Assembly (NCBI RefSeq): GCF_030269305.1
Contig: NZ_BSTC01000023.1
Span: 1-64,000, forward strand
Reading direction: 5' to 3'
DNA length: 64,000 bases
Source: Kineosporia sp. NBRC 101731
GTDB lineage: Bacteria; Actinomycetota; Actinomycetes; Actinomycetales; Kineosporiaceae
The translations under genes and the position numbers were made by a program. This document shows, one piece after another, positions 19,611 through 35,702 of this stretch (position 1 is its first letter; every line of letters begins with the position of its first letter). Below the pieces are notes generated by a model that saw only the letters and a program-made list of their open reading frames with translations, was not told the DNA's origin and searched no databases.

Positions 19611-19627
19611 GGCACGCCGTACGTGCC
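19611..19627. promoter_or_regulatory. Inverted repeat GGCACG-N5-CGTGCC upstream of mftR
   Basis: Perfect 6-bp arms 28 bp upstream of the mftR start. The GGCACG half is shared with the repeats at 19759 and 35682, so it may be an autoregulatory MftR site. Confidence 0.4.
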
Positions 19628-19751: not shown

Positions 19752-19780
19752 TTGACGCTTACGGCACGCAGTGTCATAAA
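19752..19780 (+). promoter_or_regulatory. mftA promoter (TTGACG-N17-CATAAA)
   Basis: A -35 box TTGACG at 19752-19757 and a -10 box CATAAA at 19775-19780 are 17 bp apart, the ideal spacing for a housekeeping sigma factor, about 45 bp upstream of the mftA start. The spacer is filled by the inverted repeat at 19759-19779, an arrangement expected for repressor control. Confidence 0.65.
19759..19779. promoter_or_regulatory. Candidate MftR operator in the mftA promoter
   Basis: Half-sites TTACGGCAC and GTGTCATAA around GCA form an imperfect inverted repeat (7 of 9 pairs). The core GGCACG-Y-AGTG-N-CA also occurs at 35682-35702 between the two mftD genes and at no other place I noticed. Its position between -35 and -10 fits a TetR repressor site. 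Confidence 0.65.
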
Positions 19781-19824
19781 CTCGCCCGGACAAAGTCGTT
19801 AACCGTGGACGAGAGGTCGTTTCG

Positions 19825-19944
19825 ATGAACAACACGAGCGCTCCCCAGAACGTCGTCGAGGGTGTCGAGGGCCAGAACGCCACGAACGTCGAGGAACTGC
19901 TGGTCGAAGAGGTCTCCATCGACGGGATGTGCGGCGTCTACTGA
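19825..19944 (+). CDS. mftA: MftA, mycofactocin precursor peptide
   Basis: A 39-residue peptide that ends IDGMCGVY, the invariant C-terminus of MftA. MftC decarboxylates the last Tyr and cross-links it to the Val before it; MftE then releases the Val-Tyr-derived core, which MftD and MftF convert to the redox cofactor. The acidic leader (VEELLVEEV) is the usual MftB-binding stretch. ATG 19825 follows GAGAGG. mftB starts 13 bp downstream. It is too short for routine gene calling. Confidence 0.97.
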   Translation: MNNTSAPQNVVEGVEGQNATNVEELLVEEVSIDGMCGVY

Positions 19945-19957
19945 TCGGCGCGAGGCC

Positions 19958-20308
19958 GTGACGACGCAGACCAACCGCATGTCGGTGCCGCCCCCGGCAC
20001 CGGCCCCGGGCCTCGACCTGGACCTGCTGGACAGAGCGTGGGAGCTGCACCCCAGTGTCTCCGTGCGGCCGGAACCCTTCGGGGCCCTGATGTACCACTT
20101 CGGGAACCGGCGCCTGTCGTTCCTGAAGACCCGTCAACTACTGGACGTCGTCAATGGTCTGGCCGCTGCCCCGGACGCGCGGTCCGCGTGTCTGGCGGCG
20201 GGGGTCGACCCGGCCCAGCTCCCGGTCCTGGGCCGGGCCCTGGCCGCGCTCGCGGCGGGTGACCTGATCCGCCCGAGAACGACCTCGCCCGCGGAGGACA
20301 CCGCATGA
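19958..20308 (+). CDS. mftB: MftB, mycofactocin peptide chaperone (RRE domain)
   Basis: A 116-residue PqqD-like RiPP recognition protein that binds the MftA leader and presents it to MftC. The typical MftB run WELHPSVSVRPEPFGALMY, then HFGNRRLSFL, is present. The start chosen is GTG 19958, 13 bp after mftA; ATG 19979 would remove a short N-terminal tail. The stop overlaps the mftC start as ATGA, so translation is coupled. Confidence 0.93.
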   Translation: MTTQTNRMSVPPPAPAPGLDLDLLDRAWELHPSVSVRPEPFGALMYHFGNRRLSFLKTRQLLDVVNGLAAAPDARSACLAAGVDPAQLPVLGRALAALAAGDLIRPRTTSPAEDTA

Positions 20309-21618
20309 CTGTGCTCGCATCGGCCACCCCGGCCGGTTTCACCCCGAATCCGTCGGGCCCGCCTCCTTCTCCGGGTCGCCTGGTCGACAAGTTCGCCCTC
20401 GGGCTGGACGCGCCGATCTGCCTGACCTGGGAACTGACCTACGCCTGCAACCTCGCCTGCGTGCACTGCCTGTCGAGTTCCGGCCGGCGTGATCCCCGCG
20501 AGCTGTCCACCGCCGAGGCCGAAGCGGTCATCGACGAACTGGAACGGATGCAGGTCTTCTACGTCAACATCGGCGGCGGCGAGCCGACCGTGCGGCCGGA
20601 CTTCTGGCACCTGGTCGACTACGCGACCGAGCACCACGTCGGCGTGAAGTTCTCGACCAACGGCGTACGCATCAACCAGGAAGTCGCGGAGCGTCTGGCG
20701 ACGTCCGACTACGTCGATGTGCAGATCTCGCTCGACGGCGCGACCGCCGAGGTGAACGACCACGTGCGCGGTACCGGCAGCTACGACACCGCGATGCGGG
20801 CCATGCAGAACATGTATGACGCCGGCTTCACCGGGTTCAAGCTGTCCGTCGTGGTCACCCGCCAGAACGTCGACCAGCTCGACGAGTTCAAGGCGATCGC
20901 CGACCGGTACCGGGCCCAGCTGCGGCTGACCCGGCTGCGTCCCTCGGGCCGGGGCGCCGATGTCTGGGACGAGCTGCACCTGCTCGCCCCTCAGCAGAAG
21001 CAGCTGTACGACTGGCTGGTGGCCAACGGCGACCAGGTGCTCACCGGTGACTCGTTCTTCCACCTCGCTGCGTTCGGTGGCGCCCTCCCGGGGCTGAACC
21101 TCTGCGGTGCGGGCCGGGTCGTGTGCCTGATCGACCCGGTGGGCGACGTGTACGCCTGCCCGTTCGCGATCCACGACGAGTTCAAGGCCGGGAACGTCCG
21201 TGACGAGGGCGGTTTCAAGAGCGTCTGGCAGACGTCGGACCTGTTCCGGGAACTGCGTCAGCCGCAGGACGGCGGCGCGTGCACGTCCTGCAGCTTCTTC
21301 GATTCCTGCCGGGGCGGCTGCATGGCGGCCAAGTTCTTCACCGGTCTGCCGCTGGACGGGCCGGACCCCGAGTGCGTGCGCGGTTTCGGTGAGAGCGCGC
21401 TGAGCGCGGTGGAGGGCGTCGTCCCGAAGCCGAGCCTGGACCACTCGCACAAGAACCCGCTGCGCAGTCAGCAGAAGAACACGAAGAAGCCGGTGGCGCT
21501 GACCCTCGGCGTGCGCCCGGCCATCGGGGTGGTCTCCGCCCCACCGGCCCGGGGGTGCGACGAGAACCCGCTCGCCGGGTTCGATCCTGGGATCGAGACC
21601 GGATCGGGCAGGAGCTGA
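20305..21618 (+). CDS. mftC: MftC, mycofactocin radical SAM maturase
   Basis: A 437-residue radical SAM/SPASM enzyme. The CX3CX2C cluster is C48, C52 and C55 (ACNLACVHC), the SAM-binding GGGEPTVRPD follows, and the C-terminal SPASM region has CLIDPVGDVYACPF and CTSCSFFDSCRGGC for auxiliary Fe-S clusters. It performs oxidative decarboxylation of the MftA C-terminal Tyr and the Val-Tyr C-C bond. After the last SPASM Cys there are about 95 residues (the last 65 after HSHKNPLRS), longer than I expect for the family. A hairpin at 21625-21680 follows. Confidence 0.96.
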   Translation: MTVLASATPAGFTPNPSGPPPSPGRLVDKFALGLDAPICLTWELTYACNLACVHCLSSSGRRDPRELSTAEAEAVIDELERMQVFYVNIGGGEPTVRPDFWHLVDYATEHHVGVKFSTNGVRINQEVAERLATSDYVDVQISLDGATAEVNDHVRGTGSYDTAMRAMQNMYDAGFTGFKLSVVVTRQNVDQLDEFKAIADRYRAQLRLTRLRPSGRGADVWDELHLLAPQQKQLYDWLVANGDQVLTGDSFFHLAAFGGALPGLNLCGAGRVVCLIDPVGDVYACPFAIHDEFKAGNVRDEGGFKSVWQTSDLFRELRQPQDGGACTSCSFFDSCRGGCMAAKFFTGLPLDGPDPECVRGFGESALSAVEGVVPKPSLDHSHKNPLRSQQKNTKKPVALTLGVRPAIGVVSAPPARGCDENPLAGFDPGIETGSGRS

Positions 21619-21624
21619 CGGGAC

Positions 21625-21680
21625 GGGGAGGGTTTGCCTGATCACGAAAGATTCTGCTGGTGATCAGGCGATCCCTCCCC
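21625..21680. terminator. Hairpin between mftC and the MoxR gene
   Basis: Arms 21625-21644 and 21661-21680 pair almost perfectly (core TGCCTGATCA / TGATCAGGCG and GGGGAGG / CCTCCCC). It probably ends or attenuates the mftA-mftB-mftC transcript before the MoxR/VWA pair. Confidence 0.7.
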
Positions 21681-21728
21681 GAGGGTCGCGGGGACCCGGC
21701 CACATCGTCCTCCATCGACCCTGAAACC

Positions 21729-22679
21729 ATGGTGACCGTGAGCACTGACACCCCCGACGTAGCGCAGACCCGTCACCGGGTCGCCTCCCACCTGGTCGGC
21801 CGCGAGCACGAGCTCGAGCTGATCCTGTCCGCCGTGGCGGCCGGCCGGGACCTCGTGCTCGAGGGTCCGCCCGGCACCGGCAAGACCACCCTGCTGCGCG
21901 CGATCGCCGACGAGTGGGGCATCCCGCTGTTCTACGTCGAGGGCAACGCCGACCTCACACCGGCCAAACTCATCGGGCACCACAACCCCGCGCGGGTGCT
22001 GAAAGAGGACTACACGGAAGACAATTTCGTGCCCGGTCCGCTGCTCGAGGCAATGCGGCAGGGCGGCTTCCTCTACCTGGAGGAGTTCAACCGGGCCCCC
22101 GACGACACCCTGAACACATTGCTGGCCGCGCTGGCCGAACGACGGATCACGGTGCCGCGGGTGGGGCAGGTGCGGGCCGTGCCGACCTTCCGGCTGATCG
22201 CGTCGATGAACCCGTACGACAACGTCGGCACCACGCGGCTGTCCACGTCGATCACCGACCGGCTGTGCCGTCTGGCGGTCGGCTACCAGGCCGAGGACGC
22301 CGAGATCGGCATCGTCGACCTGCGCACCGAGGCCGGTGGCAAGCTCGGTGACCTGCTGGTGCGCGACGCGGTCTGGGTGAACCGGGCCACACGCCGCCAC
22401 CCGCACCTGCGCCAGGGCAGCAGCGTGCGCGGCGCCATCGACATCGTGCTCGTGGCCAACCAGCTGGCGGCCATGCGCGGCGTCGGCGCGGCAGCCGACG
22501 CCACCACCCGCCTGGACCCTGAGAGTGCCTACCCGCAGGTGGTTCTCGATTCGATGACGGTGGCGCTGTCGGGCCGGATCCACCTCGACGAGGCGGCCGA
22601 CACCACCCCCGAGCGCGTCGTGCGGGAGATCTGGGAAGACCGGTTCATCCTCACCCCGGCCGCGGCCCAGCCGGGTTGA
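21729..22679 (+). CDS. MoxR-type AAA+ ATPase inserted in the mycofactocin cluster
   Basis: A 316-residue MoxR-family ATPase. Walker A is GPPGTGKT (46-53), Walker B is GGFLYLEEFNRA, sensor 1 is in RLIASMNPYDN and the arginine finger is in the STSITDR segment. MoxR proteins act as chaperones that insert cofactors or metals into partner enzymes, usually with a VWA protein, as here (next gene). In the mycofactocin locus it may help activate a mycofactocin-dependent or metal enzyme; this is inferred. ATG 21729 is the chosen start; GTG 21738 is also possible. Confidence 0.88.
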   Translation: MVTVSTDTPDVAQTRHRVASHLVGREHELELILSAVAAGRDLVLEGPPGTGKTTLLRAIADEWGIPLFYVEGNADLTPAKLIGHHNPARVLKEDYTEDNFVPGPLLEAMRQGGFLYLEEFNRAPDDTLNTLLAALAERRITVPRVGQVRAVPTFRLIASMNPYDNVGTTRLSTSITDRLCRLAVGYQAEDAEIGIVDLRTEAGGKLGDLLVRDAVWVNRATRRHPHLRQGSSVRGAIDIVLVANQLAAMRGVGAAADATTRLDPESAYPQVVLDSMTVALSGRIHLDEAADTTPERVVREIWEDRFILTPAAAQPG

Positions 22680-22784
22680 AGAGAAGACGCGGCGGACTCC
22701 CCGGTCGGGAAGCCGGGTGACCCGCGCAGGCCGCGCCCGAAGCGTCCTCTCCGGCGTCGTCCCAAAGCCCTGACCGCCGAGCCG

Positions 22785-23669
22785 ATGGTGTTCAGTATCG
22801 GCGAGAGCGGTGGCGGGCCGGTGCTCCAGGCCCTGGGACGGGGGACGAAGGCGTCGGCGAAGGCCTTCGCCCAGGGTTCCGGAGGGCCGGGGGAGACGGA
22901 CGACGCCGGCAGGGTGGTGCCGCTGGAGCAGGACGGCGATCCGGTGGAGAACGAGGTCAAGCAGCGCGCCCGGCAGATCGCGGCCCGCCTGTCGCTGCAC
23001 CGGCCGCCCCACGGCACCGGGCGCCGGCGCGGTACCGGCGAACTCGTCAGCGTGCGCTACCGCGAGGGTGCCGACGACATCGATCTCGACCGCACGCTGG
23101 AAGTGCTGGCGGAGAAGCCCTTTCCGCAGGACGAGGACATCGTCGTGCGGGAACGGGTGCGCCGTCGGCGGTCGGTCGAGCTGGTGGTGGACGTGTCCGG
23201 TTCGATGCGGGGCGAACGCATCCGCACGGCCGCGGCGACGGTCGGAGCGCTGGCCGGGGAACTGGGCAACGACGACGTGGGCGTGATCGCGTTCTGGTCG
23301 GACTGCTCGATCCTGCTGCCGATGGGCAAACCCTTCCTGGCTCAGACTCTGCTCGACGACCTGCTGAAACTGCCCGCCCGGGGGCTGACCAACGTCGGGT
23401 TCCCGCTGCAGCTGGCGGCGGCCGAGCTGTCACGCCGTCCGAATCCGGAGGCCCGGGTGCTGCTGCTGTCGGACTGCGTGCACAACGCCGGCCCCGACCC
23501 CCGCGGCCCGGCGGCGTTATTGCCCCGGCTCGACGTGCTGCTCGACGCCTCGGGGGAGAAGGACGAGGAACTGGGACGCGAGCTGGCCGCGGTCGGGCGG
23601 GGAAAGATGTTCGTGGTGCGTGACCACCGCCAGGTGGCGCCGGCGCTGTCGTCGATCTTCCGGTCGTAG
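22785..23669 (+). CDS. VWA domain protein (CoxE-like) paired with MoxR
   Basis: A 294-residue protein with a C-terminal von Willebrand A domain: MIDAS motif DVSGS at 136-140, a threonine site in GLTNVGFPL and the acidic LLLSDCVHN. The N-terminal 130 residues are basic and unstructured-looking. MoxR-VWA pairs are typical metal- or cofactor-insertion chaperones (e.g. CoxD/CoxE, NorQ/NorD). It is separated from the MoxR gene by 105 bp without a hairpin and followed by mftE. Confidence 0.85.
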   Translation: MVFSIGESGGGPVLQALGRGTKASAKAFAQGSGGPGETDDAGRVVPLEQDGDPVENEVKQRARQIAARLSLHRPPHGTGRRRGTGELVSVRYREGADDIDLDRTLEVLAEKPFPQDEDIVVRERVRRRRSVELVVDVSGSMRGERIRTAAATVGALAGELGNDDVGVIAFWSDCSILLPMGKPFLAQTLLDDLLKLPARGLTNVGFPLQLAAAELSRRPNPEARVLLLSDCVHNAGPDPRGPAALLPRLDVLLDASGEKDEELGRELAAVGRGKMFVVRDHRQVAPALSSIFRS

Positions 23670-23768
23670 GGGATCCTCCCTTTCCTCCGTTCGTGATCAC
23701 GGAAGGGTTGGGGGTGCTCTCGGACCTGCTGGGTGTCGGGGAAGTGACGCGGCGTAGGGTCTGGATCC

Positions 23769-24476
23769 GTGCCGTACTTCGACCTGGCTGCCATGACCAG
23801 CCCGCAGATCGCCGAGCACGCGGCTGCGGACGGCATCGTCGTCATCCCCATCGGCTCCACCGAACAGCACGGCCCGCACCTGCCGCTGGGCACCGACCGG
23901 GACGTGGCGCTCGCCGTCGCCCGGCGCCTGGCCGAGCGGATGCCGCAGGTCGCGCTCGGGCCGGCCGTCGCCTACGGGTCGAGCGGTGAGCACGCCGGGT
24001 TCGCGGGCACGATCTCGATCGGCCAGGACGCGCTGGAGTTCATGCTGCTGGAGCTGGGCCGGTCGGCGGGGGAGACCTACCGGCGCCAGGTGTTCGTCAA
24101 CGCGCACGGCGGCAACGCGGTGCCGGCGGTGAAGGCCGTGCGGAAGCTGCGGGCCGAGTCGCGCGACGTGCTGCTGTGGATGGCCACCGTGGACGGGGAC
24201 GCGCACGCCGGGCGCACCGAGACCTCGATGCAGCTGGCTCTGCAGCCGCACCTGGTCCACCGGCGCCTGGCCGAGCGGGGCAACACCACGCCGGTGCGGG
24301 AACTGATCGACCGGATGCGGGCCGGCGGGGTGCGGGCCGTCAGCCCCAACGGTGTCCTCGGTGACCCGGAGGGGGCGACTGCCGAGGAGGGTGAACGGCT
24401 GATTCAGCGCCTCGTCGACGGATTGCACACGCAGGTCCTGGCCTGGGACCCGCCCTACGGCAAACTGGGAGCCTAG
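23769..24476 (+). CDS. mftE: MftE, mycofactocin precursor peptidase (creatininase family)
   Basis: A 235-residue creatininase-fold metallopeptidase. The metal site is visible in STEQHGPHLPLGTD (E32, H34, D43) and NAHGGN (about 113-118), with a later Glu. MftE cleaves the modified Val-Tyr unit from MftA to release the AHDP core. GTG 23769 is the chosen start, since the protein begins at the family's usual place. The gene is 10 bp from mftF, so the two are co-transcribed. Confidence 0.94.
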   Translation: MPYFDLAAMTSPQIAEHAAADGIVVIPIGSTEQHGPHLPLGTDRDVALAVARRLAERMPQVALGPAVAYGSSGEHAGFAGTISIGQDALEFMLLELGRSAGETYRRQVFVNAHGGNAVPAVKAVRKLRAESRDVLLWMATVDGDAHAGRTETSMQLALQPHLVHRRLAERGNTTPVRELIDRMRAGGVRAVSPNGVLGDPEGATAEEGERLIQRLVDGLHTQVLAWDPPYGKLGA

Positions 24477-24486
24477 AGTTGGGCCC

Positions 24487-25980
24487 GTGACGACGACGGG
24501 AGTGCCAGTGGGTTTCCGGGTCGAGCTTGACCCGGAGGTGGTGATCAAACCGGACGGAACGGTTTTCGGCGGTTCGCCGGCCCGGCTGTTCCGCCTCAAC
24601 CCGGCCGGCCAGGAAGCGTTCTCGCAGCTGAGATCGGGCGTCGTGGGAAGTCCCGCGGCCTCGGCCCTGGCGCGTCGCTTCGCCGACGCCGGCGTGGTGC
24701 ATCCCGTGCGCCAGGGACTTCCGGACGACGACGGCCGGCGTCCGGGGCGGCAGGGCGTGGTCACGGTGATCGTCCCCGTCCGCGACCGGGCCCCCGAGCT
24801 CGACCGCTGCCTGAGCGGTCTGGCCGCGTCGTCGCAGCAGGCGGTGGCCGAAGTGATCGTGGTGGACGACGCCTCGCTCGACCCGCAGGCCGTCGCCGCG
24901 GTGGCCCGCACGCACGGCGCCCGGCTGCTGGTCCGCACCGTCAACGGTGGCCCGGGCCCGGCCCGCAACCTCGCCCTGGAGTCGGTGAGCACCCCGCTGG
25001 TCGCCTTCCTGGACTCGGACTGCCTGCCGTCCGCCAGCTGGATCGACGACCTGGTGGGGCATTTCGACGACCCTCTGCTGGCCGGGGTGGCTCCCCGGAT
25101 CGTTGCCGGCGGGCATGCGGGCGACACCCTCGCCGAGCGCTTCTCGCAGGCCCGGCCGGTGCTCGACCTGGGCGGACTGCCGGCCCGGGTGGCACCGCTC
25201 AGCCGGGTGTCCTACCTGCCCACCGCGGCCTTGATCCTGCGCCGATCCGCGCTCGAGGAGATCGAGGGGCCAACCGGTTTCGACGAGGATCTGCGGTACG
25301 GCGAAGACGTGGACCTGGTCTGGCGGCTGCTCGAGGCCGGCTGGCGGGTGCGGTACGACCCCACCGTGGAGATCGGCCACGAGGAACCGGCCGGGTGGAA
25401 GTCACTGCTGCGCAGGCGCTTCGCCTACGGCACCTCGGCGGCGAAGCTCGAGGAACGGCATCCGGGCAAGGTGGCGCCGCTGGTGATGGTGGCCGCGCCG
25501 GTCTCGACCGTGACGGCGTTGCTGGCCCGGCGCCCGCTGCTGGCCGCCGCCACGTTCGCGGCCGGCTACGCCGATGCCCACCACGCCCTGACCCAGGCCG
25601 GCACCACCAGCGACGACCTGCTCAAGCCCTTGGCCATCGGCGTGCGCGAGACGTTCTTCGGCATGGGCCGCTGGTCGTCCCAGTTCGCCCTGCCACTCCT
25701 GCCCCTGCTGCTCGCGCTCCCCGGCCGTCACCGCAAGGGCCGCGCGCTCGCGGCGCTGGTCCTGGTGCTGGCCTCCCCGGTCCGCGAATGGCTGAGGCTG
25801 CGTCCGGAGGGTATCGACCCGGTGCGCTGGAGCATCGCCGTGCTGCTCGACGACGCGGCCTACGGCGCGGGGGTCTGGGCCGGCAGCGTCCAGGCCCGCC
25901 ACCTGCGCGCGGTGCGGCCGAGCTGGAAGTGGCGCCTGCTGGGATCGGTCACCTCAACCCCCACCCCCAAACCTTCGTGA
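24487..25980 (+). CDS. mftF: MftF, mycofactocin glycosyltransferase
   Basis: A 497-residue GT2 glycosyltransferase. An N-terminal PqqD-like part (1-90) precedes the GT2 core starting TVIVPVRDRAPELDRCL near residue 93, with the nucleotide site VVDDASLD, the DxD-like DSDCLP and an ED motif in RYGEDVDLVWRLLEAGW. Hydrophobic segments in the C-terminal third suggest membrane association. It adds beta-1,4-linked glucose units to (pre)mycofactocin. GTG 24487 is the start. Its stop abuts the composite hairpin region that separates it from the opposing TPR operon. Confidence 0.94.
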   Translation: MTTTGVPVGFRVELDPEVVIKPDGTVFGGSPARLFRLNPAGQEAFSQLRSGVVGSPAASALARRFADAGVVHPVRQGLPDDDGRRPGRQGVVTVIVPVRDRAPELDRCLSGLAASSQQAVAEVIVVDDASLDPQAVAAVARTHGARLLVRTVNGGPGPARNLALESVSTPLVAFLDSDCLPSASWIDDLVGHFDDPLLAGVAPRIVAGGHAGDTLAERFSQARPVLDLGGLPARVAPLSRVSYLPTAALILRRSALEEIEGPTGFDEDLRYGEDVDLVWRLLEAGWRVRYDPTVEIGHEEPAGWKSLLRRRFAYGTSAAKLEERHPGKVAPLVMVAAPVSTVTALLARRPLLAAATFAAGYADAHHALTQAGTTSDDLLKPLAIGVRETFFGMGRWSSQFALPLLPLLLALPGRHRKGRALAALVLVLASPVREWLRLRPEGIDPVRWSIAVLLDDAAYGAGVWAGSVQARHLRAVRPSWKWRLLGSVTSTPTPKPS

Positions 25981-26092
25981 TCATGCAAAACCTCCCCAGC
26001 GTTCTAGAACTCTGAAGGCGACAGTTCTAGAACTCCGGGGAGTGGGGGCACCTCCCGGCCGAAGGCTGGGGGATTTGCATGATCACGGCGAA
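25974..26092. repeat. Composite inverted-repeat element between mftF and the TPR operon
   Basis: Outer arms TTCGTGATCATGCAAA (from 25974) and TTTGCATGATCACG (to about 26088) enclose two copies of the palindrome GTTCTAGAAC (26001-26010, 26024-26033) and a second hairpin (CTCCCGGCCGAAGGCTGGGGG, about 26052-26072). It separates convergent operons and is probably a bidirectional terminator; the outer arm is the same motif as in the palindrome at 205-254. Confidence 0.75.
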
Positions 26093-26130
26093 GATCTTGG
26101 TTTGTTGATCTCACGCACACGGTCTGGGGG

Positions 26131-28683
26131 TCAGCTGAGCTCTTCGGCCCGGTCGCGGACCTGCTTGGCCTCGTGGTGGCGGCCGAGCTTCTCGTAGACG
26201 TCACCGGCGGCGTTGAGCACCTGGCCGAGGACGTCGGGGTGGTCGGCCAGGATCTCGATCGCCTGCTCCATCAGGGGCAGGGACTCGGCGGGGCGGTCGT
26301 GGTTGAACAGGACCCCGGCGGCCAGCATCAGCGCGCGCCCGCCCGGGACTTCCTCCTCGATCGTGATGAACTCCTGCGCGGCCTGTTTCGCGACCCGCAC
26401 GGCCTCGTCCGGGTGTTCCCCGGCGATCGCCCGGGCCAGGGAGTCGAGCAGGTCGGCGTGCTCGAACGCGGCGGCCGGGTGGTCGTCGGCGGCGGCCTGG
26501 GCGGCGCGTTCGACCGCCTCCCGCAGCACCTCGGCGGCCCGGTCGTCCTCGTCGGCGAGACTCAGTGACCGGCCGTGCATGTGCATGGCCCGCACGAGCC
26601 ACATCGGGTCGTCCTCCTCGAGGTGGCGGGCCGACTCGACCGCACCGGCCATCACCGCGATGCCGTCCTCGTCACCGGCGTCGGTCATCAGCTCGCCCAG
26701 CGCCAGCGCCGCCCGGGTGGCCAGCAGCCAGTCCTCGTCCTGGGAGGCCAGGGCGACCGCGTCGCGGTAGGCCTCCAGTGCGTCCTGGTACTCCTGCATC
26801 GCCACGCAGCCCTGGCCGATGCGGCGCAGGGTCTCGGCCCGCTCGGAGTCGGGGGCGCCGGTCGCGATCTGGCGGCGCAGCACCTCGCGGGCCTCTTCCA
26901 CGCCCTCCTCGGCGCGGCCCAGGGCCTGCAGCAGGGAGCCGAGTTCCAGCCGGGCGCTGAGCTCCTGCGGCAGCTCGGCCAGCGCGGCCTCGCGGATCGC
27001 GATCCGCCAGCGCTCGATGGCCAGGTCGGCCTTGGACGCGTCCTGGGCCAGATGGGCGCCGAGAATCGCGGTGGTCGAGGCCCATTCGCGGGCACCCAGG
27101 CGCAGGCCGATGGCCAGGCTGGCATCGGCGGCGGCCAGGCCGGCGTCGAACTGGTCGTCGGCCCCCAGCAGCTGGGCCTTGGTGCGCAGCAGCGCCGCGC
27201 GCCGGCCGCGACCGCGGCCCTTCTCCAGGTCGGGGTCGGTGAGCGCGGTCTCGGTCAGGGCCAGGGCGGCGTCCAGACCTTCGTTGCCGGCCACCTCGAA
27301 GATGCTCGCGAGAATCTCGTCGCTCTCGCCCGCAGCCTCCAGACGCGCCTTCAGCCCGGCGATCTCGGCGATCTGGGCGGCTGTCAGCGGCTCCCCGCCG
27401 GGGGCGTCGCCGAGCGACTCGACAGCGGTCAGCACCTGGCGGGCCTGGCCGCGCTCGTCCATCGACAGGAGGTCGGAGACCAGGATCAGGCGCCCGTCCA
27501 GGTCGTCCGGCAGCGCGGCGGGCGCGGCGTCGGTGCTGACCCGGGTGGCGCCGATCGGCAGGTCGTACGACGTTCCGGCGAGCTCGTCGTCGGCGGCCAG
27601 GCGGGACTCGTACCAGCCGTTGCCGTTGCGTTCGTCGAACTGCGCGCCGAGGGCGGCGGCCGCCTGACGGGCCGCGTCTTTCAGATCGGTCACGGTCCAG
27701 GGCCCGTCGTGCTCCCCGAGGATCGGGACCAACTGGGCGTCGGAGGCGGCCGCGACGGTCTGGGCGCCGGCCCCCGCGCGCTGCGCCGCACCGAGCAGGA
27801 CCGAGGCCGCGGACAGCGCGTCGAAGTGGGCCTGGGCGTTCAGCCCGTCATGCACCAGCCAGTTCAGGTGCCGTTCGAGGATCTCCAGGCCGCGGGCCTC
27901 GTTGCCGGTGACGGCGCAGAACCGCAGGTGCTGGGCGATCATCGTGAGGTGGTCGGCGTTGGTGCGGGCCATCCGGTAGCCGCGCAGATGCATCTGCCGG
28001 GCCTCGTCCAGCCGGCCCGCGCGCAGCGCCGGCAGCAGGGCCTGGGCGATCGTGTTCTCCGGCTCGTCGCCGCAGGTCATGCCCTGCTCGAGGATCTCGT
28101 CGGCGAGCGCCAGCCCGTCCGCGTCCTTGCCGATGGCGTAGTGGTACTCCGCCTCCTCGGCCCGCACGCAGGTCTCGCAGTGGCTGTAGTTGTCGCGGGG
28201 GGTGCGCTTCAGCTCGCCGAGCCAGGTGCCGGCCTCGTCGAGACGGCCCTGCCCGACGGCAGCCTGGAAACGGGCCTGCAGCACGCCGGAGAGACCGACG
28301 CCCTCCTTCAGGTACTGCTGCTGCATGGCCTCGATCGCCGAGTCCACGTCGGCGATCGAGAACAGCGGGCTGCCCATCAGCGAGCTGACCACGTGTTTGT
28401 GGTACCAGAGCAGGTCGAAACCGCCGACCTGCAGGGGGAACTTCTCCGGGTCGGCGGCGTTGCGGCCCACGCACCAGGCGAACGCCGACAGCTGCGCGTC
28501 GGTGTCGCCGAGCATGCTCGCCGAGGGAAGGAGCCGCAGCCGGGCGGTATAGCCCTGCTCGTCCAGCCCGTGTTCGTCGGCCAGCGCGATCGCCTCGTCG
28601 ATCAGGGCGCGCTCGGCCGGCCCGAAGGGCGTGACGTCGATCTCCTCGAAGAGGGTCTCGATGCGGTCCTCGACGCTGTCCAT
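26131..28683 (-). CDS. Tetratricopeptide-repeat protein, paralogue A
   Basis: An 850-residue, acidic, all-helical protein made of many TPR-like pairs of about 34 residues (e.g. repeats containing ALEAYRDAVALA and VRDRAEELS at the end). TPRs are protein-protein adaptors, and here the operon's first gene is an HSP90, a classic TPR partner. The N-terminal 170 residues (GPAERALIDEAIALADEHG, the block LSAFAWCVGRN, and HCETC) are clearly the same domain as in the next gene, so the two arose by tandem duplication. ATG 28683. It is the last gene of the operon. Confidence 0.85.
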   Translation of the reverse strand: MDSVEDRIETLFEEIDVTPFGPAERALIDEAIALADEHGLDEQGYTARLRLLPSASMLGDTDAQLSAFAWCVGRNAADPEKFPLQVGGFDLLWYHKHVVSSLMGSPLFSIADVDSAIEAMQQQYLKEGVGLSGVLQARFQAAVGQGRLDEAGTWLGELKRTPRDNYSHCETCVRAEEAEYHYAIGKDADGLALADEILEQGMTCGDEPENTIAQALLPALRAGRLDEARQMHLRGYRMARTNADHLTMIAQHLRFCAVTGNEARGLEILERHLNWLVHDGLNAQAHFDALSAASVLLGAAQRAGAGAQTVAAASDAQLVPILGEHDGPWTVTDLKDAARQAAAALGAQFDERNGNGWYESRLAADDELAGTSYDLPIGATRVSTDAAPAALPDDLDGRLILVSDLLSMDERGQARQVLTAVESLGDAPGGEPLTAAQIAEIAGLKARLEAAGESDEILASIFEVAGNEGLDAALALTETALTDPDLEKGRGRGRRAALLRTKAQLLGADDQFDAGLAAADASLAIGLRLGAREWASTTAILGAHLAQDASKADLAIERWRIAIREAALAELPQELSARLELGSLLQALGRAEEGVEEAREVLRRQIATGAPDSERAETLRRIGQGCVAMQEYQDALEAYRDAVALASQDEDWLLATRAALALGELMTDAGDEDGIAVMAGAVESARHLEEDDPMWLVRAMHMHGRSLSLADEDDRAAEVLREAVERAAQAAADDHPAAAFEHADLLDSLARAIAGEHPDEAVRVAKQAAQEFITIEEEVPGGRALMLAAGVLFNHDRPAESLPLMEQAIEILADHPDVLGQVLNAAGDVYEKLGRHHEAKQVRDRAEELS

Positions 28684-28734
28684 TTCCCTGGAAACTCCTT
28701 GACTGTGAAGGTGACGGTGGGTGCTCGGCCGGTA

Positions 28735-31059
28735 TCAGCCGAGGTCGTCGATGAATTGCAGGTCGCCGAAGTGATCCTGCCTTACCCGCCCGACCCGGGC
28801 CGCAGCCGCCCGGGCGGCGGCCGGTCGTTCGAGCCTGTCGTACACCGAGACCAGGCTGATCAGGCACTCCAGCAGCACTTGCGGCCGGTCGTCGAGCAGC
28901 GGCTCGGCCTCCAGCAGCAGGGGCAGGGCCTGAGCGGGGCGGGCGGCGCCGTCGAGCAGGTGGGCGGCCAGCAGCAGGGAGCGCCCGGCCTGCCCGGCGG
29001 CCTGCACGGCGAGGAAGGCCGAGGCGGCCTCACGGGCCAGCCCGACTGCCTCGTCCACCCGCTCCGGCCCGGCGTCGCCGACCGTGCGGGCCAGGGAGTC
29101 GAGGATCTCGGCGTGCTCGTGGACCACGGCCGGGTCGAGGGTGGCGAACGGGTCGGATGCCTCGCGCAGGGCCTCGCGCAGGACCATCTCGGCCTGTTCG
29201 ACCCCGGCGATCTGGGCCAGGGCCTGGCCCAGCAGGTGTTCGGCCCGCACCAGGGTGAGGGGGTTGCCGCGGGTCTGCCGCGCCGATTCCACCACGCCGG
29301 CCAGCACGTTCAGTGAGTCCTGGTCGCGCCGGGCGAAGAGCAGCTCGCCCAGGGCCAGGCCGTAGCGGGTGGTCGCGGCCCAGTCGCCGGCGGTGGAGGC
29401 GAGGGCGACCGCGTCGCGGTAGCTGTCGCGGGCCCCTTCCCGGTCGGCCGGGTCGGACTGGGCGGCCAGGGCCTGACCGAGCAGGAAGTAGGCCTCGGCC
29501 AGCTCACCGGCCGGGGCCCCGGCGGCCCGCAGCAGCGCCAGGGCCTCCTCGATCTCCACCGTGCCCTCGTCCGCCTCGCCGGCGCGGCACAGGGCGGCTC
29601 CCAGTTCGAGCCGGAAGGCACTCTCGCCCGGCAGTTCTCCGGCGGCGGCCTCGCGCACGGCGGTGCGGCAGTATTCGACCGCCGCGTCGTTGTCGCCCAG
29701 GGTGGTGGCCGTCAGCGCCGCCAGGCGCGCGGTGGTGACGGACTGGTCGCGGTCACCGAGGGCGAGGCTGATCTGCAGGGCCTCGGCGGCGCAGGCCAGG
29801 GCCAGCACCGGCTCGTCCGAGGCCAGGCGCTCGGCCTCCGACTTCAGGTGAGCCGCGCGCGTCCGCAATTCGGTCTCCTCGCCCACCGGGGGCCCCGCGC
29901 TGACCTGGGGGGCGGACCGGGTGGCCAGGGGCACGTCGTAGTAGCTGTTCAGCAGGTCCAGGTCGCGCGCGAGCATCCGGGTCTGGAAGTCGTTGCCGTT
30001 GCGGGCGTCGAACTGCGCCGCCAGCCGCCCTGCCCGATCCCGCACGGTGACCGTGAGATCGCGCACGGTCCAGCCGGTTTCGCGTTCGCCGAGAATGCGG
30101 GTGAGGCCGATGGCCGACGCGGTGCGCACGATCTGGTCGCCGGCGCCGGCCCGTACGGCGGCGGCCAGCAGGACCCCGGCCGCCGAGAGCACGTCCAGGT
30201 GGCCCCGTGCGTTCAGGCCGTCGTGGGTCAGCCAGCGCAGGTGCTGCTCGAGGATCTCCAGGCCGCGGGCCTCGTTACCGGTGACGGCACAGAACCGCAG
30301 GTGCTGGGCGATCATCCGGAGGTTGTCCGGGTTGGAACGGGCTTCCCGGTAGCCGCGCAGGTGAGCCCGGCGGGCGTCGTTCAGGCGCCCGGCGCGCAGC
30401 ATCGGCAGCAACGCGTTCGCCAGGGTGTTGGCCGGTTCGCTGGCGCAGACCAGGTCGCGGGTGAGGATCTCGTCGGCCAGCCGCAGCCCGGCCTCGTCGT
30501 GGCCGCACGCGTAGCGGAACTCGGCCTCCTCGGCCCGGGAACAGGCCTCGCAGTGGCTGTACGCGTCGCGCGGGGTGCGCCGCAGGTCGGCCAGCAACTC
30601 GCCCGCCCGTTCCAGACGGCCCTGCCCGGTCGCGGCCTGGAACCGGGCCTGCCAGACCGCGGAGAGCCCCACGCCCGCCAGACGGTAGGCGGACTCCATC
30701 GCCTCGATCGCGAAGTTCACGTCGGCGCGGGAGAACAGCGGGCTGCCCATCAGGGCCCCGACCACGTGCTTGTGGAACCAGAGCAGGTCGAACTCGCCGA
30801 CCCGCAGCGGGAACCGCTGCGGGTCGGCCTGGTGCCGGCCCACGCACCAGGCGAACGCCGACAGCTGCGCGTCGGTGTCACCGGTGCGGTTGGCCGACGC
30901 CAGCAGGCGCAGCCGGGCGGCGTACCCCAGCTCGTCCAGCGTGTACTCGTCGGCCAGCGCGATCGCCGCATCGATCAGGACCCGCTCGGCGGGGCCGGAC
31001 GGGGCGGAGTCGATCTCTGAGAGCAGATCCGCGATCTGCTCCGGCAAACCCCTGTCCAT
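28735..31059 (-). CDS. Tetratricopeptide-repeat protein, paralogue B
   Basis: A 774-residue TPR protein homologous over its whole length to the 850-residue neighbour: same N-terminal GPAERVLIDAAIALADEY, LSAFAWCVGRH and HCEAC blocks and similar repeat array. The start is ATG 31059, which gives an N-terminus parallel to the paralogue (MDRGLPEQIADLL vs MDSVEDRIETLF); the open frame continues upstream into the preceding gene but that part is not protein-like. It is 51 bp upstream of paralogue A. Confidence 0.83.
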   Translation of the reverse strand: MDRGLPEQIADLLSEIDSAPSGPAERVLIDAAIALADEYTLDELGYAARLRLLASANRTGDTDAQLSAFAWCVGRHQADPQRFPLRVGEFDLLWFHKHVVGALMGSPLFSRADVNFAIEAMESAYRLAGVGLSAVWQARFQAATGQGRLERAGELLADLRRTPRDAYSHCEACSRAEEAEFRYACGHDEAGLRLADEILTRDLVCASEPANTLANALLPMLRAGRLNDARRAHLRGYREARSNPDNLRMIAQHLRFCAVTGNEARGLEILEQHLRWLTHDGLNARGHLDVLSAAGVLLAAAVRAGAGDQIVRTASAIGLTRILGERETGWTVRDLTVTVRDRAGRLAAQFDARNGNDFQTRMLARDLDLLNSYYDVPLATRSAPQVSAGPPVGEETELRTRAAHLKSEAERLASDEPVLALACAAEALQISLALGDRDQSVTTARLAALTATTLGDNDAAVEYCRTAVREAAAGELPGESAFRLELGAALCRAGEADEGTVEIEEALALLRAAGAPAGELAEAYFLLGQALAAQSDPADREGARDSYRDAVALASTAGDWAATTRYGLALGELLFARRDQDSLNVLAGVVESARQTRGNPLTLVRAEHLLGQALAQIAGVEQAEMVLREALREASDPFATLDPAVVHEHAEILDSLARTVGDAGPERVDEAVGLAREAASAFLAVQAAGQAGRSLLLAAHLLDGAARPAQALPLLLEAEPLLDDRPQVLLECLISLVSVYDRLERPAAARAAAARVGRVRQDHFGDLQFIDDLG

Positions 31060-31151
31060 GCCCGTGCCGCTCCCGGTGAGTTCGTCGTCGTCGTCGAAGA
31101 AGAGAGCCTGGCCTGTCTGGCGTGGTCTGGCGTGGTCTGGCGTGGTGCGTG

Positions 31152-32294
31152 TTACTCGCTCTTCGGCTTCTCCGCTTCCTTGAACCCGCGCATCTGCTCC
31201 GACAATTCCTCGGCCGCCTTCGCGTCTTCGGTGCGGCCCAGCTGGGCGTAGGTCGCGGCCAGGATGTCGAGGCAGCCCACCAGGTGCTCGGGCTCGGCGG
31301 ACAGTACCGCGGTGGCCCGTTCCAGGAGCGGCACGGCCTCGGCCGGGCGGTCGGCGGAGGTCAGCAGCCGCGCACCCAGGGTGAGCGAACGGCCGGCGTC
31401 GACCTTGCCGCCGATGTTGGAGTACGTGTCGGCGGAGTTCTGTGCGCACTCCACCGCCTCGTCCAGCCGCTCCGGCCAGGCACCGCTGATCAGCACGGCC
31501 AGCCCGTGCAGCACCGCGGCGCGGGCGGCGCTGACGGCAGCGTGCTCGGACGCCGGCGGGGTGGAGGACAGCTGCAGCGCCTCCTTGAGGGTCTCCTCGG
31601 CCCCCTCGACGTCACCGGCCCGGCCGCGGGCCCGGCCCACGCGGTTCAGCGAGTCGATCAGGCCGAGCAGGTCACCGTGCGGCTGACGGGGCGGCTCGAC
31701 GATGACGATCGGCTCACCGGCGGCGGCCTCGGTCAGCGCCAGCCGGTACAGGTCGGCGGCCTCCTGGTAGCGGTGCAACTCCAGGGTGGCCTGCGCGGCG
31801 GTGCGCGAGAGCTGCACGCAGAACCCGTGGGCGCCCAGGTCCAGACCGATACGCAGGGCGTCCTCGGCCGTGTTGAGCATGTCTTCCAGTCGCCCGGCGC
31901 CGGCCAGGATCCAGGCCTTGGCCCGCAGCAGCGCCGCCACCTGGCCCCGGTTCAGGCCCTCGGCGGCCAGCGCATCGTCGACGACCTGGACCACCTTCAG
32001 CGGCTCCATGTCGTCGGGCACCGCGACCACGGGGGTGAGGGCCTCGTCGAGCTCCGGAGGGTTCTCGCGGCGGGCCCGGGCGGCCGCGAGGCGCTCGTTC
32101 TGCTCGTCGGTGAAGGTGGCCTTCAGCAACATGCGGCGCGTCGCGATCAGGTCGAGCAGCTGCCCGGCCAGACCGAACTCCTCGAGGACGAGGAGGCACT
32201 CCACACGGTCGAGAAGGACGTCGGTGTCGATGGACCGGGGGGACTTACCGGCGGGCGGCCCGTCGGTCCGGTTCTGGCTCTGCGTCGTGTTCAT
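31152..32294 (-). CDS. Tetratricopeptide-repeat protein (short)
   Basis: A 380-residue helical TPR protein, the second gene of the HSP90 operon, 3 bp after the HSP90 stop codon. Repeats of TPR length are visible (ALNRGQVAALLRAKAWILAG, ATLELHRYQEAADLYRLAL, the last near KAAEELSEQM). It probably bridges the HSP90 to clients or to the two larger TPR proteins. ATG 32294. Confidence 0.83.
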   Translation of the reverse strand: MNTTQSQNRTDGPPAGKSPRSIDTDVLLDRVECLLVLEEFGLAGQLLDLIATRRMLLKATFTDEQNERLAAARARRENPPELDEALTPVVAVPDDMEPLKVVQVVDDALAAEGLNRGQVAALLRAKAWILAGAGRLEDMLNTAEDALRIGLDLGAHGFCVQLSRTAAQATLELHRYQEAADLYRLALTEAAAGEPIVIVEPPRQPHGDLLGLIDSLNRVGRARGRAGDVEGAEETLKEALQLSSTPPASEHAAVSAARAAVLHGLAVLISGAWPERLDEAVECAQNSADTYSNIGGKVDAGRSLTLGARLLTSADRPAEAVPLLERATAVLSAEPEHLVGCLDILAATYAQLGRTEDAKAAEELSEQMRGFKEAEKPKSE

Positions 32295-32297
32295 TGA

Positions 32298-34226
32298 TCA
32301 GTTCTCCCCGGGGGCATCCGGCATGTCGCCGAGATCAGCGCCCAGCCCGGCACTCAGGTGCACGATGTCGGTCAGAGCGTCGGTGAGCGAGGCCCGCTCG
32401 ACCGCGCGGAGGGGGCGGTGTGCAGCCAGCAGGGCCTGCACATGTACCACCCGTACGGTACGGGCGAGCAGGAGATCATCATCGCTCTCGGCCAGTGCCC
32501 GAACCAGCCGATTACGCCAGTTCAGGCAGAGCTGGCCGGCAGCTCCGACATTCTCACCCTCACCATCTATCTGGTGCTGCGATCTTTGTGAATCCTGAGC
32601 GTCGTCGATGCGTTGCAGGATCGACGCCCACATGCCGCTCCCGGCCTCTTTGGCCCGCTGGCGCTGCAGCCGGCGAAGAACCCCGGCGTCGGCGATGTGC
32701 AGTGCGGGGAGGGTGTCGGGAGCGAACGACCGCACGAGAACCGTGCAGTCGAGATCTTTCAGCGCGGCCTCGGCCCGGGCCTGCAGGCGCTGCGCGGACG
32801 GGCGCTCGGCCAGCGGCGGCACGTCGAGCGAGGCCAGCTCGTCGGTGATCGTGACGGTCTCGACCACCGTGCCGGGGATCAGCTCGGGCAGCCGCCGCAG
32901 GATGTCGGAGTCGTAGACGTAGCCGCCGTTGATCACCGGCGCGTCCGGCCGGGCGATGGCCGCGATCTGGCGGAACTCGTCCACCGTCTCGGCGAAGCGC
33001 AGGGGGGCACCGCGGCGCAGCAGCTCACGGTAGGTGGTCTGGCCGTTGCTGGTCTCGATCGGCAGCCAGGGCACGATGAAGCCGGCCAGCTCGTCGTCGT
33101 GCAGCACCAGCGAGCGCAGCGCCAGGTGGTGCACGCCCAGGAAGGTGCTCAGGCGCACCGGGTCGCGGTTGGCCAGGGTGGCCACCCAGCGGCGCAGCGC
33201 GGCGCCCAGTTCGGCCCGGGTCTCCTCGAGCGCGTCGTCCTGGATCAGCGACTCCCGGCTGGCCGTGGGGCGCAGCCCGGAGGTGTCGACCACGCAGCGG
33301 GCGAAGAACGCCCATTCGGGCAGCAGGTCGTCGGTGCGTTCCGACAGCAGCATGCCGCGCAGGTAGACCCGGGTGGCCTGGCGGGCGCCGGGGGAGGGGG
33401 CGAACGGGAGGACGAACGCGGTGCCCCGGGTGCCGGTGGCGGGCACGTGCAGGGGGATGGCGTCGAGGGGGTCGGCGCCGATCAGCTCGCGCCCCAGCGC
33501 CATCAGCTCGGGGGTGGCGTGGGTGAAGGGCTGTGCGAAGAGCGGTTCGCCGCTGACGATCTGCTCACCGCCGCCGGGCAGGTCGACCCGCACCGGCACC
33601 GGCAGGTAGGCACCGTAACGGGAAGCCAGATCGAGGACGCCGGTGGGCGAGGTCAGCTCGCCGTCACCGGCCCGCGGGCGCAGGCGCACCTGCGTGCCGA
33701 CCGCCAGGCCGCCCGCGGCTTCGACCTCGGACTCCAAAAGCTCTCTGACCGTAAATGTTCCGTCGGCGCTGCCGACCCACTCGACCGGCGGCTCGCCGCC
33801 GGCGCTGCGGGACAGCACCCGGATGTCGTCGCTCACCATGAAGCAGCTGAGCAGGCCGATGCCGAACTGGCCGAGCCGGTCGGTGCGGGGCAGGTCGAGC
33901 ACGTCGCGCTTGGAGCTGCGCCCGACCGTGGCCAGCAGCTCGCCGACCTCCGCCGCGGTCAGGCCGATTCCGTTGTCGGTGAAGACCAGTTCGCCGCCCG
34001 GGGTGTGGGCCGGGGTGATCCGGATGGCTCCCGGAGGCGTCCCCGGCATCCCCTCACGCGCCGTGATCGCATCGACACCGTTCTGCAGCAGTTCGCGCAG
34101 GTAGACCTGTGGGCCGGAGTAGATGCTGCGGCTCAGCAGGTCGACGATTCCCCGCAGGTCGACCTGGAACGGCCGGGAGGCGGGCGGCGTCGCCTCGGCC
34201 GGGGTTGGCTCGGGGATGGCAGGCAC
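32298..34226 (-). CDS. HSP90 family chaperone (HtpG-like)
   Basis: A 642-residue protein with the HSP90 GHKL ATPase at the N-terminus: the ATP-lid asparagine in LRELLQNGVDAI, DNGIG in VFTDNGIGLTAAEV, and GQFGIGLLSCF. The remaining domains are diverged from HtpG and the C-terminus is longer than the minimal form. The start is GTG 34226, at the point where similarity begins; upstream reading is open but Arg/Pro-rich. It is the first gene of an operon with three TPR proteins, an arrangement that suggests a dedicated chaperone-adaptor machine. Clients are unknown. Confidence 0.85.
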   Translation of the reverse strand: MPAIPEPTPAEATPPASRPFQVDLRGIVDLLSRSIYSGPQVYLRELLQNGVDAITAREGMPGTPPGAIRITPAHTPGGELVFTDNGIGLTAAEVGELLATVGRSSKRDVLDLPRTDRLGQFGIGLLSCFMVSDDIRVLSRSAGGEPPVEWVGSADGTFTVRELLESEVEAAGGLAVGTQVRLRPRAGDGELTSPTGVLDLASRYGAYLPVPVRVDLPGGGEQIVSGEPLFAQPFTHATPELMALGRELIGADPLDAIPLHVPATGTRGTAFVLPFAPSPGARQATRVYLRGMLLSERTDDLLPEWAFFARCVVDTSGLRPTASRESLIQDDALEETRAELGAALRRWVATLANRDPVRLSTFLGVHHLALRSLVLHDDELAGFIVPWLPIETSNGQTTYRELLRRGAPLRFAETVDEFRQIAAIARPDAPVINGGYVYDSDILRRLPELIPGTVVETVTITDELASLDVPPLAERPSAQRLQARAEAALKDLDCTVLVRSFAPDTLPALHIADAGVLRRLQRQRAKEAGSGMWASILQRIDDAQDSQRSQHQIDGEGENVGAAGQLCLNWRNRLVRALAESDDDLLLARTVRVVHVQALLAAHRPLRAVERASLTDALTDIVHLSAGLGADLGDMPDAPGEN

Positions 34227-34343
34227 CTGCGAAAGCCTAGGGGGTCGCAGGGGTTTGTCCGAAACCGCCGGGGGTGTGAAATCCGCGGGTTTTCTCTCAC
34301 TGATCCGTGACCGGTCCTCACGCAGCGCTCCCGGGCGGTGAAA

Positions 34344-34373
34344 TGCCCCCGGAAACCTGTGCTTCCGGGGGCA
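34344..34373. terminator. Terminator downstream of the first mftD
   Basis: Arms TGCCCCCGGAA (34344-34354) and TTCCGGGGGCA (34363-34373) are perfect, with an 8-nt loop. It lies between the mftD stop (34388) and the HSP90 start (34226), which separates the two transcripts. Confidence 0.75.
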
Positions 34374-34387
34374 CCTCGAGCAGCGGA

Positions 34388-35593
34388 TCAGGCGGGCCCG
34401 ACCGCCTTCGGCGCCGGGGTGGCCCCGAGGGAGCGGGTGAAGCCGGCGGGGACGATCAGGTCGTCGGGGGTCAGGTCGTGGATCGAGGAGTGACCGAGAC
34501 CCAGCACAGCGGAGTCGATACCGCCGCGCAGGATGTCGATGACGTTCTCGACACCGGCCTGGCCGTTGGCCGCGAGGCCCCACAGGTACGCGCGGCCGAT
34601 CATCACGGCCCGGGCGCCCAGGGCGAGCGCCTTGACCACGTCGGAGCCGCGGCGGATGCCGCCGTCGAGGACCACCTCGATGTCGTGCCCGACGGCCTCG
34701 GCGATCGCGGGCAGCGCCCGGATCGACGCCGGGGTGGCGTCCAGGTTGTTACCGCCGTGGTTGGAGACCGAGATCGCGGTGACCCCGGCGTCCACGGCGC
34801 GCCGGGCGTCGTCCACCCGCATGACGCCCTTGAGCATGAACTCCCCGCCCCACTGCTCACGCAGCCAGGCGATGTCGTCCCAGGTGGGCAGCGGGGTGCC
34901 GTACCACTCGCCGTAGGCGCCGAAGAAGGTCGGCGCCGGGCCGCCGTCCGGCGGGGCCAGGTTCGGCGTGGTCAGGTCGGGGATCTTCCGGGTGCGGCCG
35001 AACTGGTACAGCCACTTCGGCCGGATCAGCACCTCGGGGGCGAACCTGATCGCCGTCCTCAGGTCGATCTTCGAGGGGATCTCCGGGGAGCCCCAGTCCC
35101 GGCCCATCGAGAACGACCAGTCGGTGGTCAGGATCAGGCCCTTGGCCCCGGCCGCCCGGGCGCGCTCCATGCGCTGCACCAGGACCTCCCGGGTACCGAC
35201 CCAGTACATCTGGAAGAACGTCTTGTCGTTGACCGCGGCCACGTCCTCGATCGACCGGCTGGCGAACGAGCTCAGCCCCATCGTGATGCCCCGCGCGGCC
35301 GCGGCGCGGGCGACGGCGACCTCACCCTCGGGGTGCACGGCCTGCACCCCGGTCGGGGAGATCATCACCGGCAGGGCCAGGTCCTGACCCATGACCGACG
35401 TGCTCAGCTCGCGGGTCTGCGACAGCCCGGCGACGTGCGGGGCGAAACCGAGCTCGCCGAAGGCGTTCATGTTGTCGTCAACGGTCAGACCGCGCTCGGA
35501 ACCGCCGACCAGCGCCATGTACACGGAGCGGGGAAGCCGCTTCTGGGCACGCCGGTGCGCCTCGGCGACCGTCTCGAACCACGGGTTGGCCAT
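34388..35593 (-). CDS. mftD: MftD, pre-mycofactocin synthase (FMN-dependent oxidase), canonical copy
   Basis: A 401-residue member of the FMN-dependent alpha-hydroxy-acid dehydrogenase family, very close to mycobacterial LldD1/MftD (NPWFETVAEAHRRAQKRLP, GVQAVHPEGEVAVARAAAARG). Active-site residues of the family are kept: Tyr130 in FFQMYW, Asp158 in LTTDWS, Lys255 in FMLKG, His279 in SNHGGNN, and the FMN-phosphate loop DGGIRRGSDVV. MftD oxidises the AHDP core to the dicarbonyl pre-mycofactocin. ATG 35593 follows GAGGAGAG. It is divergent from a second copy. Confidence 0.93.
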   Translation of the reverse strand: MANPWFETVAEAHRRAQKRLPRSVYMALVGGSERGLTVDDNMNAFGELGFAPHVAGLSQTRELSTSVMGQDLALPVMISPTGVQAVHPEGEVAVARAAAARGITMGLSSFASRSIEDVAAVNDKTFFQMYWVGTREVLVQRMERARAAGAKGLILTTDWSFSMGRDWGSPEIPSKIDLRTAIRFAPEVLIRPKWLYQFGRTRKIPDLTTPNLAPPDGGPAPTFFGAYGEWYGTPLPTWDDIAWLREQWGGEFMLKGVMRVDDARRAVDAGVTAISVSNHGGNNLDATPASIRALPAIAEAVGHDIEVVLDGGIRRGSDVVKALALGARAVMIGRAYLWGLAANGQAGVENVIDILRGGIDSAVLGLGHSSIHDLTPDDLIVPAGFTRSLGATPAPKAVGPA

Positions 35594-35681
35594 CTGTGTT
35601 CTCTCCTCTTCGAGAGGCGGAACGGAAAAGCGCTGATCACGTGATCGACCGCTGGAACTGCCCGCCGGACCCGGAACGTCA

Positions 35682-35702
35682 TATTGGCACGTAGTGACAA
35701 TA
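35682..35702. promoter_or_regulatory. Candidate MftR operator between the two mftD genes
   Basis: Half-sites TATTGGCAC and GTGACAATA around GTA match 8 of 9 pairs. It shares GGCACG-Y-AGTG-N-CA with the site in the mftA promoter. It lies in the 164-bp divergent promoter region and could control both mftD genes. Confidence 0.65.

Follow-up and report, generated by a model that had tools for sequence, protein, structure and literature searches.

Background

The closest described counterpart of the system studied here is the operator Omft of M. smegmatis, on which the repressor MftR of the mycofactocin (mft) genes has been footprinted at 5'-TCCATTCTGGCACTCGATGCCATATAT, with the palindrome T-N2-GGCA-N5-TGCC-N2-A, as given in PMC8728441. 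According to the same paper, the effectors of M. smegmatis MftR are long-chain acyl-CoAs, which release it from the operator, and MftR still bound when single bases of the palindrome were changed (PMC8728441). The paper also relates that the motif of a site of Rv0691c, found by chromatin immunoprecipitation with sequencing (ChIP-seq) 5' of M. tuberculosis mftA (Minch et al.), is contained in Omft. The text available from two further papers, PMC11778925 and PMC6529628, gives no operator. In this study we analyse two palindromes in a stretch of 64 kb from Kineosporia sp. NBRC 101731, below called the window, which belongs to contig C23 of an 8.26-Mb draft genome (G000). One palindrome lies over the promoter of the precursor gene mftA, and the other lies between two divergent copies of mftD, the gene of the pre-mycofactocin synthase. 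We propose, with a probability of roughly 0.87, that both are MftR operators and that the mftA operon and the separated mftD pair are switched together.

Candidate operators before mftA and between the mftD genes

The first candidate operator, TTACGGCACGCAGTGTCATAA, occupies 19759..19779 (no strand assigned), at -66 to -46 from the ATG of mftA, and the second, TATTGGCACGTAGTGACAATA, occupies 35682..35702 (likewise without strand), 89 bp from the start codon of mftD1 and 56 bp from that of mftD2. An earlier note on this DNA had placed the two palindromes at exactly these positions, which are correct. Of the nine positions in the arms of the first, TTACGGCAC and GTGTCATAA, 7 are paired, and in those of the second, TATTGGCAC and GTGACAATA, 8 are. 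Site 1 stands on a predicted promoter of the plus strand, composed of the -35 hexamer TTGACG (19752..19757) and the -10-like CATAAA (19775..19780) with a spacer of 17 bp, and the six genus genomes all have TTGACG-N17-CATAAA with these hexamers and this spacer length. This promoter had been pointed out before; the palindrome does not, as was then thought, exactly fill the spacer, since it covers 16 of the 17 bp of 19758-19774 together with 5 bp of the -10 hexamer.

As far as the accessible description of Omft allows the comparison (PMC8728441), the Kineosporia sites resemble it in having a GGCA-N5-TG(C/T)C core with AT-rich arms, in the location of site 1 shortly upstream of mftA, and in the adjoining mftR of the TIGR03968 family. 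They differ in that Omft lies at -79 to -53 from mftA, and in that the right half is TGTC or TGAC in Kineosporia: site 1 reads GGCA-N5-TGTC and site 2 GGCA-N5-TGAC, each one base off in the right half. The outer T-N2/N2-A of the published palindrome is present at site 1; at site 2 the two outer positions are A and T. Again unlike what is described for Omft, Kineosporia has a second candidate operator at the two mftD genes, which lie far from mftA, as well as operator-like sites at a gene for a short-chain dehydrogenase/reductase (SDR) and at the nuo operon of respiratory complex I.

For an assessment by sites from other families, mftA was sought by a peptide pattern in 79 loci and found in 58 (50 of them outside the family of the window), while the other 21 yielded none by this pattern. 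The matrix was trained on 42 of these 50 out-of-family loci (39 distinct sites), which have a GRCA-N5-TGYC dyad or a near match at most 130 bp upstream of mftA; the eight loci failing this filter were excluded. The resulting matrix is symmetrical, has 29 columns and contains no site from the window's family. When the 64 kb are scanned with it, site 1 ranks first with 25.2 bits and site 2 second with 23.3 bits, the third-best match being a weak operator-like sequence, TGCACACGATGCA, at 55902 with 12.3 bits and the remaining matches listed falling below zero. The peak in 8 Mb of first-order random sequence is 17.2 bits. The published M. smegmatis operator obtains 32.3 bits over its 27 columns, a score to be read with the proviso that the training set may include close relatives of that bacterium.

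Both sites are kept in all six genomes of the genus while their flanks have drifted. Before mftA the conserved form is TTGACG-Y-TTACGRCACGSAGTGTCATAAACTC, and between the mftD genes it is TATTGGCACGWRGTGWCAATATAG, each present in 6/6. The mean pairwise identity is 0.95 for the mftA site vs 0.34 and 0.43 in the flanks, and 0.93 for the 25-bp core of the mftD site vs 0.35 and 0.31 in the ungapped flanks. The string shared by the two palindromes, GGCACGYAGTGNCA, occurs four times in the genome, vs once for a control pattern; its other two matches, C1:1431878 and C9:83037, lie inside open reading frames (ORFs), never score above 8 bits with the operator matrix, and were rejected. On the whole, the identity, conservation, position and specificity of the two sites can be read directly from the DNA.

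Sites at mftD genes in other genomes

The mftD genes of other genomes offer a wider view of this arrangement. In a survey of 394 genomes of the class, MftR is detected in 97 (E<=1e-55) and MftD in 99 (E<=1e-140), from which we chose 20 regions in which mftD is at a distance from mftR or present twice. In the group f26 g58, where 11 such genomes have MftD, each of the eight regions analysed shows a site of 13.8-28.9 bits, placed about 60-190 bp ahead of the mftD N-terminal motif; in five of them mftC precedes mftD by 2.6-3.5 kb in the same orientation, and the other three have no mftC upstream on that strand in the DNA examined. In the group f28 g60 a site of 33.1-34.5 bits stands about 50-75 bp before mftD in 6/6 regions (of seven). 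Four of these come with their neighbourhood, where mftD is convergent with mftF, and a moxR-vwa pair lies between mftC and mftE as in Kineosporia. When mftC directly precedes mftD, as in L134, L135 and L136, the site is found only at the head of the operon, 1.4-1.6 kb upstream (3/3). No site is seen in L137-L139 (G024 twice and G047, without MftR at E<=1e-55), which form a weak control because mftD ends an mftC-E-F-D run in two of the three, so that a site of its own is not expected.

Among 80 named mftD loci, ten show a match scoring 14 bits or higher in the 450 bp ahead of the gene: Kineosporia babensis, Acidiferrimicrobium, Compostimonas, Pseudonocardia, two Amycolatopsis, Herbiconiux solani, Saccharopolyspora, a metagenome-assembled genome (MAG) of Subtercola and one other MAG. 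Another 24 have a site 1.4-3 kb upstream, where the mftA promoter would be, and six have one elsewhere. Overall, these data suggest that an mftD gene not directly behind mftC tends to carry its own putative MftR operator. Since such genes elsewhere also tend to have their own site, the proposal of one regulon for mftA-mftF and the separated mftD pair generalises beyond Kineosporia.

Operator-type sites elsewhere in the genome

The strict pattern WWWYGNCAYNNNRTGNCRWWW was written from the matrix after the places at nuoA and at the SDR had already been seen. With zero mismatches it occurs at four places in this genome, namely upstream of nuoA, in a gap between the SDR gene and a gene for an MftR paralog (MftR2), before mftA and between the mftD genes. 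In the relatives two zero-mismatch matches fit no mft gene, G005:C34:87167, inside a predicted ORF, and G007:C15:72807. If one mismatch is allowed, the five relatives have 10, 11, 7, 5 and 13 matches, vs 3, 1, 4, 3 and 1 for a control pattern.

MftR2 (G000:C11:113346-113972) matches TIGR03968 with 148 bits, below the cut-off, and is 37% identical to MftR; in the window's genome both share the identical core recognition-helix motif AGVSRRTFFRYF. Its gene is divergent from that of a mycofactocin-coupled SDR (TIGR03971 381 bits, cut-off 300), the two occupying G000:C11:112387-113972 (L036). In each of the six genus genomes the gap between them contains a conserved site resembling GTTRCGWCACGCTGTGYCATAAC, with 17.1-23.4 bits; the case for this site rests on its conservation, because its lower scores come close to the peak of the random sequence. 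The genome has no other TIGR03971 match than this SDR (E<=1e-60). TIGR03989 has two matches in the genome, neither above the cut-off, and the other mycofactocin-coupled families were not searched for. The earlier note had expected mycofactocin-dependent dehydrogenases among the regulon members, and the one conserved site of this kind, at the only TIGR03971 SDR, agrees with a predicted membership.

About 420-470 bp upstream of nuoA (G000:C1:1098583; L029, L147) there are two sites, of 28.8 and 13.0 bits, and the scores reach 31.9 in G005. At least one such site is present in 6/6 genomes of the genus, and two, spaced by 53-54 bp, are present in 5/6; all are centred about 400-500 bp before nuoA. 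They were first read, from an alignment, as sites of another regulator, a reading dropped when the matrix gave 13.0-31.9 bits. No such site is detected before nuoA in any of 47 other genomes, comprising seven others of the family (two with MftR), 20 other MftR-bearing and 20 MftR-lacking genomes of the class, and the class-control regions peak at 8.4 bits. The sites before nuoA therefore look genus-specific. Within the family, MftR2-level matches (143-155 bits) have the same distribution, being found in the six genus genomes only, of 13.

Rex control of nuo is known from actinomycetes. Like such operons, nuo of this genus has a Rex-like palindrome, TTGTGAAGTGATTCACG, upstream of nuoA in six of six genomes, and the palindrome is nearer to nuoA than the MftR-type sites; unlike them, it has MftR-type sites, farther upstream.

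Other palindromes were also noticed. Less conserved sites of the GGCAC-N3-GTGCC type with 17.7-24.0 bits (L034, L048, L049) apparently represent one shared place in three relatives, and two of them adjoin a csbD-like peptide recognised by eye; they perhaps belong to another regulator. Weaker sites are seen by a gene for a TetR protein, by one for a membrane protein and by csbD-like genes.

Genes and further repeats of the window

The candidate reader of the sites is encoded beside site 1. The gene mftR (18969..19583, minus strand, with its start codon predicted) codes for a TetR-family repressor that matches TIGR03968 with 243 bits (cut-off 224.9) and has the MftR C-terminal domain PF17754. 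On the plus strand follow mftA, the precursor peptide (19825..19944; TIGR03969 54.2 bits, cut-off 25), mftB (19958..20308; TIGR03967 102.5 bits, cut-off 33) and mftC, the radical SAM maturase (20305..21618; TIGR03962 654 bits, cut-off 265). Between mftC and mftE lie, also on the plus strand, genes for a MoxR/GvpN-like AAA ATPase (21738..22679; AAA_5 98.7 bits, with the GvpN model at 82.8 bits, below its cut-off of 266.8) and for a VWA-domain protein (22785..23669; VWA_2 51.9 bits). This moxR-vwa pair has the same place in 6/6 genomes of the genus and in the four f28 g60 loci (L130-L133), and in Compostimonas and Herbiconiux moxR and vwa stand directly before mftD. The run is completed by mftE (23769..24476, plus; TIGR03964 287.3 bits, cut-off 172) and mftF (24487..25980, plus; TIGR03965 355.6 bits, cut-off 280).

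Between mftF and mftD1 lie further genes that span more than 8 kb. The block at 26131-34583 includes genes for TPR-repeat proteins and a HATPase-domain protein, and is kept in all six genus genomes. Then come mftD1 (34388..35593, minus strand; TIGR03966 714.8 bits, cut-off 470.85) and mftD2, a second pre-mycofactocin synthase gene (35758..36933, plus strand; TIGR03966 656 bits), whose products are 70% identical in a pairwise alignment. The duplication, with two divergent mftD genes around one candidate operator, is kept across the genus; in one relative (L008, G008:C19:4214-5362) a six-frame search shows an in-frame TGA in mftD2.

A third palindrome, GGCACG-N5-CGTGCC, exists upstream of mftR at 19611..19627 (no strand), as had been noted. 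The proposal that it is a related MftR site does not hold, as its GGCA...TGCC spacing is 9 rather than 5 and no score there exceeds -12 bits. It is also poorly conserved, a similar repeat (GACACG-N5-CGTGTC) being found in G009 only, among five relatives, and we judge it not to be an MftR operator. Some relatives have degenerate repeats shortly before mftR, a possible autoregulatory site that we do not claim, as its conservation is too poor. Far from these genes, at 215-244 of the window, there is a perfect 30-bp palindrome, ATGCAAAGTGTCCCCGGGGACACTTTGCAT.

Discussion

The match to the known operator, the first and second rank with the out-of-family matrix and the conservation in six of six genus genomes all argue for the view of the earlier note that the palindromes are the MftR operator and that the mftD pair is a predicted member of the mftA-mftF regulon. 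The same view gains from the presence of a true MftR next to the mft genes (TIGR03968, 243 bits) and from those mftD genes of other families that are not directly behind mftC and have a site of their own. The note had also named many copies at unrelated genes as an outcome that would speak against it, and such copies are not seen at zero mismatches, where the places number four.

Several observations nevertheless weigh against this view. The right half deviates from TGCC at both sites (TGTC and TGAC), and the outer T and A known from M. smegmatis are missing at site 2. Because single-base changes are tolerated in M. smegmatis (PMC8728441), the sequence is in any case a loose guide to MftR sites. 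The looser string GGCAYNNNRTGNCA occurs 39 times in the genome vs 53 for its control, so that the bare core is not commoner than the control pattern; by itself it is uninformative, and the AT-rich arms matter. Among 200 matrices with permuted columns, 2 also reach 23.3 bits within the 64 kb. With up to one mismatch, WWWYGNCAYNNNRTGNCRWWW has 8 matches in this genome vs 7 for the control, so that here only the strict matches are informative. Half of the named mftD loci (40/80) are without such a site in the DNA examined. The genome holds 73 TIGR03968 matches (E<=0.001), one of them being MftR2 with the identical AGVSRRTFFRYF, and another TetR protein could therefore own the site.

The last point leads to the question of which protein reads the sites. 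They may be read mainly by MftR2, or both paralogs may compete for them, for example with MftR acting at mftA and MftR2 at the SDR and nuo. The divergence of MftR2 from the SDR with the site between them in 6/6 genus genomes, the core recognition-helix motif that MftR2 shares with MftR in the window's genome, and the co-occurrence of MftR2-level matches with the nuo sites, in the six genus genomes only, of 13 family genomes, are all in its favour. Yet sites of the same type precede mftA in 42/50 loci outside the family, in M. smegmatis such a site is known to be bound by MftR, and no feature is seen that separates the sites into classes; we regard a main or competing role of MftR2 as rather unlikely. 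It is much less probable that an unrelated regulator of the TetR type acts at the mftD palindrome, whose likeness to site 1 would then be due to chance or convergence. Less conserved GGCAC-N3-GTGCC-type palindromes do occur near genes without a known mycofactocin tie, but the mftD palindrome is second in the whole window by a matrix built outside the family, and mftD genes not directly behind mftC are preceded by a site of this kind in two further families as well as in several of the named genera. Being inverted repeats, the palindromes might also be RNA hairpins, terminators or recombination sites. This we consider very improbable, as the imperfect arms are short (9 bp) with a loop of three bases and without a T-run, site 1 lies over the conserved TTGACG-N17-CATAAA, and the letters themselves are kept, beyond mere pairing.

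If the two palindromes are MftR operators, an MftR dimer on site 1 would cover the spacer and part of the -10 hexamer and block transcription of mftA-B-C-(moxR-vwa)-E-F, and a dimer on site 2 would repress both divergent mftD genes at once, from promoters and start points that are predicted at mftD. A ligand, by analogy to M. smegmatis a long-chain acyl-CoA, would release MftR, and then peptide synthesis and the MftD step would be induced together despite the intervening genes. Binding, repression and ligand are here modelled on M. smegmatis. With less certainty, control through this operator type, by MftR or MftR2, may extend to the TIGR03971 SDR and the nuo operon. In its full form the proposal has one operator type and two MftR paralogs at four Kineosporia promoters (mftA operon, mftD pair, SDR and nuo), and a single signal would switch cofactor, consumer and respiratory chain together; we hold it to have about even odds.

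The operator type is already known, and its reach in Kineosporia seems to be new. Among the papers listed on mycofactocin, mftD and nuo regulation, surveyed by title and the opening of the abstract, none describes such a regulon, and no paper in the literature searched pairs mycofactocin with Kineosporia; given the incomplete coverage, this is not proof of its absence from print. The results suggest the rule that an mftD gene not directly behind mftC tends toward its own MftR operator. The four promoters predicted to be linked in this genus also point to likely partners of mycofactocin, namely one SDR and complex I. If this is true, the ligand of the repressor, perhaps a long-chain acyl-CoA, would induce a respiratory complex along with the cofactor.

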